A stretch of 64,000 nt of DNA from Mariniphaga sp. GTDB taxonomy: Bacteria > Bacteroidota > Bacteroidia > Bacteroidales > Prolixibacteraceae. The notes below the pieces were generated by a model. It was given only the letters and a program-made list of their open reading frames with translations. It did no database searches and was not told the DNA's origin. Position numbers and translations under genes: made by a program. The stretch covers positions 1 through 64,000 of the forward strand of contig JAHYIT010000008.1 in the NCBI GenBank assembly GCA_019429205.1, given 5' to 3'. Positions 58,166 to 61,201 of the stretch are shown here, one piece after another; position 1 is the stretch's first letter, and the number at the start of each line of letters is the position of its first letter.

Positions 58166-59488
58166 ATGAAAGTTTTAAAATTTGGTGGAACATCAGTTGG
58201 CTCGCCGGAAAATATGCGGGCTGTAATGAAAATTATTACCGACGGGGAGCAGAAAATTGTGGTACTTTCGGCCATGTCGGGAACGACAAATGCACTGGTT
58301 GAGATTTCCGGTTTTTTAAGGAAGAAAAACCGGGATACTGCCGGGATGCTTATCAACAAACTACAATCAGGGTATAAGGAGGTTGTAAACAACCTTTTCA
58401 AAACAGAAGAAAATAAAAAGAAAGGCCAGAAGATTGTTAAAACTTCATTTAACACTATAAAATCGTTTACATCAGGGAAATTTACACAGGCTGGCGAAAA
58501 TACCATCCTGGCCCAGGGCGAGCTCATTTCTACCCAGCTTTTTACCTTACTGATGGTTGAAGAAGGATACGATTGCAAATTACTTCCGGCGCTTGATTTT
58601 ATGCGAATTGATGAAGATAAAATGGCTGATTCACAATATATCCGTAACCATGCCGAACGGATAATAAATGAGGTTGGAAAGGCAACTTACTATATTACGC
58701 AAGGTTACATTTGCCAGAATGCCACAGGTGAAATCGATAATCTTCAACGCGGGGGAAGCGATTACACTGCTTCGCTTATCGGAGCTGCCATTGATGCCGA
58801 AGAAATTCAGATTTGGACCGATATTGACGGTTTTCACAACAACGACCCGCGGTTTGTGGAAAACACCCAAAAAATTGAACAACTTTCGTTTTACGAAGCG
58901 GCAGAGCTGGCTTATTTCGGGGCAAAAATTTTGCACCCGCAAACCGTTTTCCCGGCAAGAGTGCAGGACATTCCGGTAAGGCTGAAAAATACGATGAACC
59001 CAACCGACAGCGGAACGCTGATTACTTCCGAATCATCGGGTGCAGGAATAAAAGCCGTGGCTGCTAAAGACGGAATTACCGCCATAAAAATCCGGTCGGA
59101 CAGGATGTTGATGGCCTATGGTTTCCTTAAAAACGTATTTAAAATTTTTGAAGAATTCAAAACGCCAATCGATATGATTTCAACCTCAGAGGTTGCGGTT
59201 TCGCTTACCATCGACAATACCGAAAACCTGAAGAAAATTGTGGGTGAACTGGACAAATACGGAACAGTTGAAATTGACCGGAACATGACCATTATTTGTA
59301 TTGTAGGTGATATTATTGGCGAGGAACGGGGGTTTGCCTCCAAAGTGTTCAGTGCGCTTGACGGAATTCCAATCCGAATGATTTCTTACGGTGGCAGCCG
59401 CTATAATATTTCGGTACTGGTGCCCAATTCACATAAGAAAAATACATTGCAGGCGTTGAGCAAAAATCTGCTGAGTAACGGAGATTAG
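58166..59488 (+). CDS. lysC: Aspartate kinase
   Basis: First step of the aspartate family amino-acid pathway. The 440-residue monofunctional enzyme opens with KFGGTSVGSPENM and has the active-site loop RGGSDYTASLIGAAI. Two C-terminal ACT domains follow from about residue 300 (TAIKIRSDRMLMAYGFLKNV). These normally bind lysine or threonine for feedback inhibition. No other amino-acid gene is nearby. Confidence 0.96.
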   Translation: MKVLKFGGTSVGSPENMRAVMKIITDGEQKIVVLSAMSGTTNALVEISGFLRKKNRDTAGMLINKLQSGYKEVVNNLFKTEENKKKGQKIVKTSFNTIKSFTSGKFTQAGENTILAQGELISTQLFTLLMVEEGYDCKLLPALDFMRIDEDKMADSQYIRNHAERIINEVGKATYYITQGYICQNATGEIDNLQRGGSDYTASLIGAAIDAEEIQIWTDIDGFHNNDPRFVENTQKIEQLSFYEAAELAYFGAKILHPQTVFPARVQDIPVRLKNTMNPTDSGTLITSESSGAGIKAVAAKDGITAIKIRSDRMLMAYGFLKNVFKIFEEFKTPIDMISTSEVAVSLTIDNTENLKKIVGELDKYGTVEIDRNMTIICIVGDIIGEERGFASKVFSALDGIPIRMISYGGSRYNISVLVPNSHKKNTLQALSKNLLSNGD

Positions 59489-59622: not shown

Positions 59623-60567
59623 ATGAAAAATTTTAAAATTTCTTTAATTTTTGGACTAATGTTTGGTTTTCTCCTGTTCTCATGCGAAAAATCAGACGAA
59701 GGCCCCGCTGTTGTAATAGATGGTTTAACAGCCGAAAACTATCCCAAAGTTGACTGTTCCACCTCGGCGGGGCCGTTGCAGACCATTATTTACTGCGAAT
59801 TATTAGGGCTGGATTACAGTTGGAGAAGGAATATGGCCCTTGATAATGTTTTTTATGTACATCCCGATATCGATGATTATTCCAGCTTTTCAGAAAAGAC
59901 AAGCGTGTCGGGCACCCACGGGGCTTATATGAGCCTGATAAACAAAGAATCTGATTTGATCCTTGTTGCCCGGGAGCCGTCCGGTGACGAACTGGATGCC
60001 GCAGGTTTGGAGGGTGTGGAACTGGAAATTACACCGGTAGCCCTCGATGCTTTTATTTTTATCGTAAACACGAACAATCCCGTAAAGTCATTGACCACCA
60101 GCCAGATTAAAGATATTTATAAAAACAACATTACCAACTGGAAGGAAGTAGGAGGTAACGACAGCCCAATAAATCCTTATGTAAGAAACGCCAACTCGGG
60201 CAGCCAGGAACTGATGGAAACACTGGTGATGAAAGGGGAACCAATGGCCGACTGGACAGAAGCGATATTGTCGGGAATGTCAGGTCCGTTTTCGACTTTA
60301 CGTTTTGATGAAAACGGCTTGTGTTACACTGTATATTATTACAAGGAACAAATGGTCAGGGACCAGATTGTTAAGCATCTTTCAGTGGATGGCGTTTATC
60401 CCGATAAAAAAACCATAAAGAACCAGTCGTATCCATACACAACGTTTGTTTATGCTGTTGTCCGGCAGGATTTGAACCGAACTTCCATGGCTTTTAAAGT
60501 TTATGAAGCCCTTCAGACCAAAGGAGGAAAACGCATGATTGAAAAAAGCGGGTACATTGCGAACTGA
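59623..60567 (+). CDS. PstS-like phosphate-binding lipoprotein
   Basis: A 314-residue periplasmic binding protein. The signal has a lipobox ending FLLFSC, so it is lipid-anchored. The PstS family segments are recognisable, including SLTTSQIKDIYKNNITNWKEVGG and NANSGSQELMETLVM. No PstA, PstB or PstC gene lies next to it. It could bind phosphate, or be a solitary sensor or scavenger. A terminator follows 40 bases after the stop. Confidence 0.85.
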   Translation: MKNFKISLIFGLMFGFLLFSCEKSDEGPAVVIDGLTAENYPKVDCSTSAGPLQTIIYCELLGLDYSWRRNMALDNVFYVHPDIDDYSSFSEKTSVSGTHGAYMSLINKESDLILVAREPSGDELDAAGLEGVELEITPVALDAFIFIVNTNNPVKSLTTSQIKDIYKNNITNWKEVGGNDSPINPYVRNANSGSQELMETLVMKGEPMADWTEAILSGMSGPFSTLRFDENGLCYTVYYYKEQMVRDQIVKHLSVDGVYPDKKTIKNQSYPYTTFVYAVVRQDLNRTSMAFKVYEALQTKGGKRMIEKSGYIAN

Positions 60568-60611
60568 AAGGGGGTTTTTCCTGAAGGAAAATGCGGGCTA
60601 AACTTAAACCC

Positions 60612-60701
60612 AAAAGAGGTTGCTTTTAAAGCAACCTCTCTTTTTGGGTGGTAGATCCCGACTAAGTCGGGACGACCCTTTCCTACCACTGTAAGGATGC
60701 T
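60612..60701 (-). pseudogene. Decayed tRNA-like sequence plus terminator (copy of the tRNA-His 3' region)
   Basis: Reading the minus strand, this segment runs from a D-arm-like AGTTCTGGTGGTTAGAGC (which holds the GIY-YIG stop codon) to a CTACCACCC 3' end and then a terminator. Over the last part it closely matches the tRNA-His copy at 60973-61040, including the hairpin AGAGGTTGCTTTTAAAGCAA (mirror AGAGGCTGC at the other copy). The T-arm is replaced by the palindrome TCCCGACTTAGTCGGGA and lacks TTC, so it cannot be a working tRNA. Confidence 0.6.
60613..60646. terminator. Terminator of the pstS-like/GIY-YIG junction (repeat copy A)
   Basis: AAAGAGGTTGCTTT pairs with AAAGCAACCTCTCTTT (perfect GAGGTTGC/GCAACCTC core). 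It can end the PstS-like gene and, on the other strand, the GIY-YIG gene. The same hairpin, slightly changed, recurs at 60973-61005. Confidence 0.85.
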
Positions 60702-60965
60702 CTAACCACCAGAACTTTTATTGCGATTAATCCATTCGTAAATTCGTTGAGTGTTTTTGAATCCTTTGAGTTTTCTTTCCATATGTATTGCTTCAGTCCG
60801 TGTTGAAAATTCCATTAAAAAAATAAGCTTCCAGGGGCCTTTCCCACGGGTATAAGGACTTCCGCCGGAATTATGTCTTTCAACCCGTTTCATCAGGTTT
60901 GAAGTTTGCCCGATGTAAAGTTTTCCCGAATTTTGCGATTCTAAAATGTAGGTGAAATATTTCAT
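60702..60965 (-). CDS. GIY-YIG nuclease-family protein
   Basis: An 87-residue single GIY-YIG domain: the YTYIL/YIG pair (FTYILESQNSGKLYIGQTSN) is followed by the catalytic arginine region MKRVERHNSGGSPYTRGKGP and a C-terminal LKGFKNTQRIYEWI helix. Such proteins in Bacteroidota are often called YhbQ/Slx1-like; their function is unproven. The stop codon lies inside a tRNA-like decayed sequence and the promoter side abuts the terminator of tRNA-His. It is therefore flanked by two copies of the tRNA 3' end plus terminator. Confidence 0.88.
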   Translation of the reverse strand: MKYFTYILESQNSGKLYIGQTSNLMKRVERHNSGGSPYTRGKGPWKLIFLMEFSTRTEAIHMERKLKGFKNTQRIYEWINRNKSSGG

Positions 60966-60972
60966 AAAAGCA

Positions 60973-61005
60973 AAAAGAGGCTGCTTTTAAGGCAGCCTCT
61001 GGTTT
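60973..61005 (-). terminator. Terminator of tRNA-His (repeat copy B)
   Basis: AGAGGCTGC pairs with GCAGCCTCT around TTTTAAG, followed by a T-run in the sense of the tRNA (A-run on the minus strand's 5' side). It repeats the hairpin at 60613 with compensating differences (GTTGC/GCAAC versus GCTGC/GCAGC). Confidence 0.75.
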
Positions 61006-61010
61006 TTTTG

Positions 61011-61084
61011 GGTGGTAGACCGGACTTGAACCGGCGACCTCTGGAACCACAATCCAGCGTTCTAACCAACTGAACTACAACCAC
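61011..61084 (-). tRNA. tRNA-His (GTG anticodon)
   Basis: A complete cloverleaf on the minus strand, from 61084 to 61011. The acceptor GTGGTTG pairs with CTACCAC, with a single T-T mismatch at positions 6 and 67. D-stem GTTC/GAAC, anticodon stem CTGGA/TCCAG with loop TTGTGGT (anticodon GTG) and T-stem GCCGG/CCGGT with TTCAAGT are normal. An extra G-1 (61085) opposite C73 is present as expected for histidine tRNA. CCA is not encoded. Confidence 0.9.
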
Positions 61085-61201
61085 CATTTATTTGAGGCTG
61101 CAAATATAATATTTTATTCGTTTTTGTTTCTTAAAAAAAGGAAAAATTTCTGCTCCAAAATGTGCCTGAAAAACCTATTTTTATCGGAAACTAAAAGGGA
61201 A

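Follow-up and report, generated by a model that had tools for sequence, protein, structure and literature searches.

Organization of the tRNA-His locus

The window, by which we mean the whole 64,000-nucleotide stretch analysed here, carries an intact tRNA-His gene and, behind it, an altered copy of the same tRNA. In minus-strand order, the locus consists of tRNA-His, a terminator, a GIY-YIG gene, the altered tRNA-His copy and a second terminator. The features are the following.

61010–61084, minus strand: intact tRNA-His(gtg), the host tRNA gene (ARAGORN; Rfam, 65.7 bits)
60967–61009, minus strand: terminator hairpin 1, between tRNA-His and the GIY-YIG gene (direct and inverted repeat)
60702–60965, minus strand: stand-alone GIY-YIG open reading frame, 87 aa, with a UPF0213/SLX1-like fold (open reading frame list; PF01541; fold comparison)
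60646–60716, minus strand: altered tRNA-His copy with a D-arm-like part, a degraded anticodon part, a hairpin in place of the T-arm and the 3' acceptor strand TCTACCACC retained (repeats, reading, fold)
60656–60672, no strand: palindrome TCCCGACTTAGTCGGGA, occupying the place of the T-arm (genome pattern count; reading in context)
60646–60655, minus strand: duplicated tRNA-His 3' end TCTACCACCC (direct repeat)
60606–60645, minus strand: terminator hairpin 2, the duplicated copy (direct and inverted repeat; fold)

A preliminary description of this DNA had proposed that the hairpin and the tRNA-His end are duplicated, and the comparison bears this out. The two terminators (60606–60645 and 60967–61006) share 83% identity across 40 nt; TTTTTGGGTGGTAGA, which comprises the end of the tRNA and its T-run, is an exact 15-nt repeat (60641–60655 and 61005–61019). 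The likeness of both terminators at one locus may reflect local duplication or gene conversion. As also described, the D-arm-like stretch of the second copy (approximately 60699–60716) contains the GIY-YIG stop codon, TAG at 60702–60704, and the T-arm is replaced by the palindrome. The GIY-YIG gene is the sole sizeable open reading frame between both tRNA-His copies.

Neither ARAGORN nor Rfam calls the altered copy a tRNA, and a low-threshold Rfam search of it returned 11 matches, each far under its gathering score. The palindrome is present on one side of the GIY-YIG gene only, has no clear CGTC tag next to its stem, and has a loop that is single in the genome; its core, CCCGACTNAGTCGGG, occurs once in 5.12 Mb. 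The fold of the second terminator copy (z = −6.5), together with similar layouts at many tRNA genes, places the window layout beyond chance.

Empty sites in related genomes

The orthologous place was located via the neighbouring sugar-kinase gene, for which 40 genomes were searched, 35 gave a match and 30 loci were fetched. In six of the 30 fetched loci, the window and five others, tRNA-His adjoins the sugar-kinase gene; the five others include two of the same genus (G108 and G110). All five show, by eye, one tRNA-His and one terminator, and none of them has a match to the window GIY-YIG protein. Empty sites already containing both tRNA ends would have spoken against the preliminary description; these five have one end each. 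The unit was therefore gained in the lineage of the window or lost in the others.

The next gene in G108 and G110 is the aspartokinase gene (window 58166–59488; protein identity 80% and 83%). Between this gene and the element, the window has a gene at 59623–60567, which by eye we name substrate-binding-protein-like and which has no match in the stretches fetched from these two genomes.

The GIY-YIG enzyme

Domain, residues and fold all place the window protein in the GIY-YIG superfamily. PF01541 is its only Pfam match (66.2 bits, cut-off 22.6); the Pfam search found no HUH/Y1 tyrosine transposase domain (PF01797) in it, and an ncbifam search gave one weak partial match. The catalytic residues of GIY-YIG enzymes are two tyrosines, an arginine, a histidine and a glutamate. 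Among the tRNA-adjacent genes described below, the GIY tyrosine is present in 58/60, the YIG tyrosine in 59/60, the arginine in 59/60, the histidine in 60/60 and the glutamate in 56/60, the four glutamate exceptions all being gaps. The median dN/dS of the tRNA-adjacent genes is 0.23 (123 pairs, dS 0.1–1.5), which shows that they are under purifying selection.

The enzyme fold was predicted with a pLDDT of 90.6 and is closest to UPF0213 and SLX1, with I-TevI more distant. SLX1 is a structure-specific endonuclease of branched DNA. The proximity of the predicted fold to UPF0213/SLX1 suggests that hairpin or junction DNA may be the favoured substrate.

GIY-YIG genes recur beside tRNA genes

A PF01541 profile search of 140 genomes of the family gave matches in 134, up to 17 per genome, UvrC included. 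The sample of 90 loci comes from the first 150 rows of these matches, 30 loci being supplied by the search and 60 picked by hand from the top. The rows passed over in the chosen range were mainly long UvrC-looking open reading frames and matches at contig ends, and weaker rows lie outside the sample. The second small GIY-YIG gene of the window genome (L001) and eight loci from named genomes were added. L002 and L004 (the window) and L022 and L033 (duplicates of L046 and L049) were left out before counting, and the UvrC-like L003 was not kept by the profile.

With the window and duplicates excluded, a same-strand ARAGORN tRNA call lies within 500 nt of 59 of the 115 GIY-YIG genes, and an opposite-strand call in 1/115. 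Within the family alone, the same-strand figure is 53/106. The 59 include calls of tRNA-??? and tRNA-Stop, which are altered copies, and fall to 55 without them; among those 55, a few named tRNA-Lys or tRNA-Cys are altered copies too. As a control, using fixed gene bounds, 70 Y1/RAYT transposase loci were taken from 20 of the genomes, and none of them has a tRNA within 500 nt. At the GIY-YIG loci, tRNAs of one type often neighbour each other.

The association extends beyond the family. Dokdonia (L012) has the complete layout; here it is the anticodon arm that is exchanged. In Maribacter (L006) and in a Flavobacteriales MAG (L005 and, from the same MAG, L011), the 3' end of one and the same tRNA flanks the gene on either side, and a hairpin lies on the far side. 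The GIY-YIG gene adjoins a tRNA in a Bacteroidia MAG (L007) and in Neomarinimicrobiota (L008, L009), with hairpins around the gene in L009; a second tRNA copy was looked for in L008 and not found. No such layout of tRNA and hairpin was seen in L010. The earlier proposal linked a nuclease-bearing unit to tRNA genes and to a duplication of the tRNA end and terminator. These many further occurrences uphold it, and the condition that would have spoken against it, the lack of a second occurrence in any genome, does not apply.

Altered tRNA copies with exchanged arms

In 55 testable cases, the same tRNA was sought on the other side of the GIY-YIG gene by alignment score. A score of at least 24 was obtained in 46 of these, compared with one for reversed sequence and a mean of 9.8 for other tRNA types; nine cases stayed below 24. 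For a score of 40, the corresponding figures are 27, 0 and a mean of 1.4. Many of the second copies are 3' parts only. In 33 cases that have a tRNA upstream and a copy downstream, the stop codon of the GIY-YIG gene is usually found at the beginning of the copy or slightly within it, and it is often the TAG of TTAGCTC. Some altered copies are still called by ARAGORN as tRNA-??? or tRNA-Stop, and the one in L012 has a fold z of −2.3.

Exchange of one arm is common, and different copies have different arms exchanged. The anticodon arm is swapped in Val copies (L012, L030 and L083), whereas in Asp copies it is the T-arm (L017, L039 and L094) or the D-loop (L041 and L081). Hairpins armed with TCCCGA replace arms in Met, Pro, Tyr, Val and Asp tRNA copies, and the swapped-in hairpins of other clades have other sequences. 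Tandem arrays are also found, with three units at a 470-nt period in L046 and three at 358 nt in L083, as are solo altered copies without a gene (L030 and L077).

TCCCGA palindromes in the window genome

The pattern TCCCGA-N3..7-TCGGGA gives 51 palindromes in the window genome, compared with one for the backwards pattern; same-genus genomes have 2, 4 and 9. Fifty listed places and the Asp one were read in context. Five of the palindromes are located in copies derived from a tRNA whose intact gene lies alongside, namely His, Asp, Tyr, Pro and Met. Both small GIY-YIG genes of this genome are located behind a tRNA, His in the window and Asp in L001; at L001, another two tRNA-Asp 3' ends have TCCCGA..TCGGGA or a variant in the T-arm. 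The expectation that a hairpin copy always comes with a GIY-YIG gene holds for these two of the five tRNAs but not for Tyr, Pro and Met, whose copies lack the nuclease. The altered Tyr (L223, anticodon arm), Pro (L316, anticodon arm) and Met (L327, D-loop) copies directly precede the intact gene. The palindrome does replace the T-arm in the window, as first described, but it is not a unique by-product: the class recurs and may replace the D-, anticodon or T-arm.

Thirteen TCCCGA doublets lie exactly 45 nt apart (L226–L237 and L309–L328), in a short element with AGTTGGCAAAA / TTTTGCCAACT inverted repeats, which makes the TCCCGA class heterogeneous. The dispersed TCCCGA doublets differ in the loop from the window palindrome, and some copies of the T3 palindrome described below fit the TCCCGA pattern too. 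At L196, L333 and L346, the loop of a terminator-like stem apparently contains a TCCCGA hairpin, the surrounding stems measuring 10, 10 and 6 bp. Nesting in larger stems is only modestly enriched overall: of the 82 sites left after deduplication, 9 have a stem of at least 6, where permutation gave a mean of 2.3 and a maximum of 7. At L253 (G020), TCCCGATGAAAATCGGGA stands on either side of a Y1/RAYT-type transposase, so that some TCCCGA palindromes may belong to RAYTs.

Two halves of the GIY-YIG tree

A tree of 116 proteins (78 columns) separates into halves of 69 and 47 rows with an SH-aLRT of 96. All tRNA-adjacent rows fall in the 69-row half, in which not every row has a tRNA in its locus, and none in the 47-row half. 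When 16 proteins from plasmid records, 15 of them from other phyla, are added, tRNA adjacency requires 8 changes on the tree, compared with 43.6 after shuffling. Within the 69-row half, clades correspond for the most part to Asp, Val(tac), Pro, Arg/Leu and Val(gac)/Met, and each has a hairpin type of its own. The window protein has no close relative in the tree (end branch 0.59); resolution is limited by the few columns and by long branches, that of the window included.

Many Asp loci share the upstream flank and most Val loci share both flanks, so the match of clade to tRNA owes much to descent at one tRNA locus. The preliminary description had suggested tRNA targeting or a homing-like unit. 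The tie to tRNA genes stands, but frequent homing between tRNA genes is unsupported, since many units of the family keep one tRNA locus by descent, with arrays growing and shrinking.

Palindrome-bracketed genes in the sister branch

In the tRNA-free half, other palindromes stand on both sides of many GIY-YIG genes, frequently at about −40 and +77. Any of nine palindrome types is found near 86 of the 115 genes and near 1/115 in reversed sequence, and 29 genes have none; because the types were defined on these same loci, further tests were made. A loose pattern, CYGAANNNNNTTCRG, had a high background and was exchanged for a tighter one.

The T3 palindrome (CYGAAYTYRTTTCRG) reaches 118 copies per genome, with 0–2 for reversed-pattern controls. 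The T2 palindrome (ATTCCCRCNNNNGYGGGAAT) occurs in 22 of the 140 genomes, with a control of 0. Among the matches listed, T3 copies often form inverted doublets 36–41 nt apart. In the sister branch, T3 palindromes are thus dispersed as inverted doublets and also lie around the gene, the arrangement that characterizes RAYT/REP systems.

Palindrome content follows the cognate GIY-YIG clade. The median number of T3 copies is 40 in the 25 genomes with a T3-clade GIY-YIG protein (at least 120 bits) and 2 in the 115 without (p = 4.4e-12, the genomes not being independent). T2 palindromes are present in 10/11 genomes with a T2-clade protein (at least 129 bits) compared with 12/129 without (p = 2.3e-13, with the same dependence among genomes). 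Within one genus, matched pairs of clade and palindrome gave p = 2e-5 and 1.8e-4, crossed pairs 0.24 and 0.26. Fourteen genomes have at least 20 T3 palindromes and no T3 GIY-YIG gene.

At the T3 loci, a T3-like palindrome lies within 260 nt downstream in 25/25 and on both sides in 21/25, some of these loci having also served to define the type. The tags are oriented, with GTC outward in 11 of the 13 nearest upstream palindromes and GAC outward in 12 of the 13 nearest downstream. Of the T2 palindromes of Bacteroidota, 19/20 have no CGTC tag. The T4-clade genes L054 and L055 (G056) are flanked by repeats of the CGTCATTGCGAG type. No case of movement was observed: common flanks are found for most T3 GIY-YIG genes of one genus and for the one of G110.

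Y1/RAYT genes are present in all 20 genomes searched for them, and many RAYTs there have their own palindromes. None of the 70 RAYT/Y1 loci has a T2 or T3 palindrome within 300 nt.

Bracketed GIY-YIG genes in other phyla

A T4-clade protein query matched 33 plasmid records, of which 16 were examined, near-duplicates being omitted. One and the same palindrome family lies on both sides of the GIY-YIG gene in 13 of the 16 loci; in L355 and L362 the palindrome is downstream only, and L352 is ambiguous. The hosts of the 13 are Sinorhizobium, Azospirillum, Neorhizobium, Shinella, Rhizobium, Novosphingobium, Sphingobium, Aeromonas, Neisseria and the cyanobacterium Planktothrix. In 8 of these 13 loci, the nearest copies have CGTC outward on both sides. 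Azospirillum has doublets, Sinorhizobium has no tag, and the nearest tags in Neisseria point inward. In three 49.9-kb stretches, 3/3 GIY-YIG genes are bracketed, compared with one of 124 other annotated genes, an IS4 transposase gene beside the GIY-YIG gene.

Some of the settings are worth recording. The GIY-YIG gene lies inside a suf operon, between sufB and sufC, in Azospirillum (L351, annotated) and Shinella (L357, by eye). On a Planktothrix plasmid (L348), its neighbours on either side are a gene for an MmeI-type restriction enzyme and drmA, part of a DISARM defence locus. A Neisseria gonorrhoeae record filed as a plasmid (L366) has eleven ATTCCC-N8-GGGAAT repeats, which we take to be dRS3-like, within 1.26 kb around an unannotated GIY-YIG gene.

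Discussion

The window unit is probably a tRNA-invading form of an element made of a nuclease and a palindrome, working like RAYT/REPIN systems with an unrelated, SLX1-like enzyme. The steps of cleavage, repair and mobility that we infer would be as follows. The tRNA arms and the palindromes could both form stem-loops in DNA, and the nuclease would recognize and cut hairpin or cruciform DNA arising from tRNA arms and from its own palindromes. Repair from an element-bearing copy would then insert a segment consisting of the tRNA 3' part, the terminator, the GIY-YIG gene, the tRNA 5' part and the hairpin into the cut arm. On one side, this would restore a complete tRNA; on the other, it would leave an arm-swapped, presumably uncleavable copy, followed by the old 3' end and terminator, so that the terminator is doubled. 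Repeated rounds would give tandem arrays, and loss of the gene would leave solo arm-swapped copies. In the sister branch, the same type of enzyme would act with dispersed, often CGTC-tagged palindromes, and the product would be a dispersed palindrome doublet.

Several observations speak against this mechanism. The intact tRNA beside the gene should remain a target and yet is spared; of the five tRNAs that have a hairpin copy in the window genome, Tyr, Pro and Met have no GIY-YIG gene; and the TCCCGA palindromes are heterogeneous, the loop of the window palindrome being single. To these come the shared flanks, with descent accounting for much of the match of clade to tRNA, the 14 genomes rich in T3 palindromes that have no T3 GIY-YIG gene, the nine cases with a second-copy score below 24, and the 29 genes near which none of the nine palindrome types lies.

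The fold itself recalls free-standing GIY-YIG homing endonucleases, such as I-TevI and SegA. Such an enzyme would cut the empty tRNA locus of another cell and be copied by allelic gene conversion, with the hairpin and the duplication as scars. Clades largely specific to one tRNA type, the existence of empty allelic sites beside a presumed target and an orthologous tRNA locus shared by related genomes agree with this. We nevertheless regard it as unlikely, because an intact, apparently cleavable tRNA persists beside the gene, hairpins with the same arms occur in copies of different tRNAs, also where the gene is missing, and the palindrome-bracketed sister branch is left unaccounted for. In contrast to homing endonucleases, moreover, the window gene lies outside any intron, intein or target gene, behind a tRNA terminator and between tRNA copies; its nearest folds are UPF0213/SLX1, not I-TevI, and it has a palindrome as partner and leaves an arm-swapped tRNA.

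It is rather less likely still that a RAYT or another enzyme moves the palindromes, which would land in tRNA copies and near GIY-YIG genes by chance or preference, the GIY-YIG gene being a passenger. The presence of Y1/RAYT genes in every genome searched, the bracketing of one RAYT by TCCCGATGAAAATCGGGA and the palindrome-rich genomes that have no cognate GIY-YIG gene would fit such a mover. Against it stand the 70 RAYT/Y1 loci, at which neither T2 or T3 palindromes (within 300 nt) nor tRNAs (within 500 nt) are found, and the bracketing of GIY-YIG genes, which is clade-specific and has outward tags at most T3 loci. A 2013 survey also reports that no tyrosine transposase gene with flanking CGTC repeats was found (PMC3733652). 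The RAYTs are on these counts disfavoured as movers of T2 and T3.

A role at the RNA level, in which the arm-swapped copies are putative expressed tRNA-like RNAs (processing signals or decoys) that the hairpin would protect or mark, appears improbable. Some altered copies do look tRNA-like to ARAGORN, that of L012 has a fold z of −2.3, and the GIY-YIG stop codon is often at or in the copy; the many copies that are 3' parts only, and hairpin arms that hold one sequence across different tRNAs, argue against it. Ordinary decay of a duplicated tRNA and terminator, with a GIY-YIG gene between them by chance, is very improbable: the second copy in the window is degraded outside its 3' end and same-type tRNA neighbours are frequent at these loci, but the same TCCCGA arms appear in Met, Pro, Tyr, Val and Asp copies and GIY-YIG genes lie beside such copies far more often than in controls.

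The locus shares with tRNA-targeting integrative elements a duplicated tRNA 3' end around a gene. It differs in being a one-gene unit without an integrase, with an exact repeat of 15 nt and ends that are unequal through the arm swap; on these grounds we set aside an element of this kind.

The nuclease-plus-palindrome reading that we favour has its closest parallel in the RAYT/REP/REPIN systems. As described in PMC3116915, these have, like the sister branch, a single gene bracketed by palindromes and mostly held at one orthologous place, dispersed inverted doublets, and a copy number tied to the cognate gene. The differences are that the enzyme here is GIY-YIG and not HUH/Y1, that no T2 or T3 palindrome was found within 300 nt of the 70 RAYT/Y1 loci sampled, one of which has a TCCCGA type on both sides, and that the window form occupies tRNA arms. 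CGTC-tagged REPs are, according to the 2013 survey (PMC3733652), a large super-family in five phyla, Bacteroidetes among the hosts, and they "apparently lack a dedicated transposase". In our data, CGTC likewise lies outside the stem in most T3 palindromes and in many of those from Proteobacteria; unlike in the survey, GIY-YIG genes are bracketed by them. The repetitive and double hairpin elements of mitochondria (PMC2800124) are similar in that short hairpins, conserved in the stem and free in the loop, spread through a genome; they differ in being organellar, and no partner enzyme is named in the passages that describe them.

Among the literature matches listed, which cover neither preprints nor most subscription journals, none describes GIY-YIG genes together with REPs or in tRNA cassettes; one paper on Moraxella mentions both GIY-YIG and RAYT and gives them as separate genes (PMC9465073). 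What may be new is the combination of enzyme family, target and product, the principle resembling RAYT/REPIN; an earlier description may exist elsewhere.

The wider reading is that small stand-alone GIY-YIG proteins are the missing mobilizing enzymes of CGTC-tagged and related palindromes across phyla. They would form a second, unrelated REPIN machinery, one branch of which turned to tRNA stem-loops, swapping arms for its own hairpin and regenerating the tRNA. We hold the chances of this to be evenly balanced. A GIY-YIG partner makes the question of what moves the CGTC repeats, left open in the survey (PMC3733652), testable with one small protein. If the wider reading is true, the tRNA branch would represent a new way for selfish DNA to inhabit essential genes, by entering an arm, rebuilding the tRNA and leaving a swapped copy. 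It would also explain the duplicated tRNA ends and the small GIY-YIG genes beside tRNAs in Bacteroidota.
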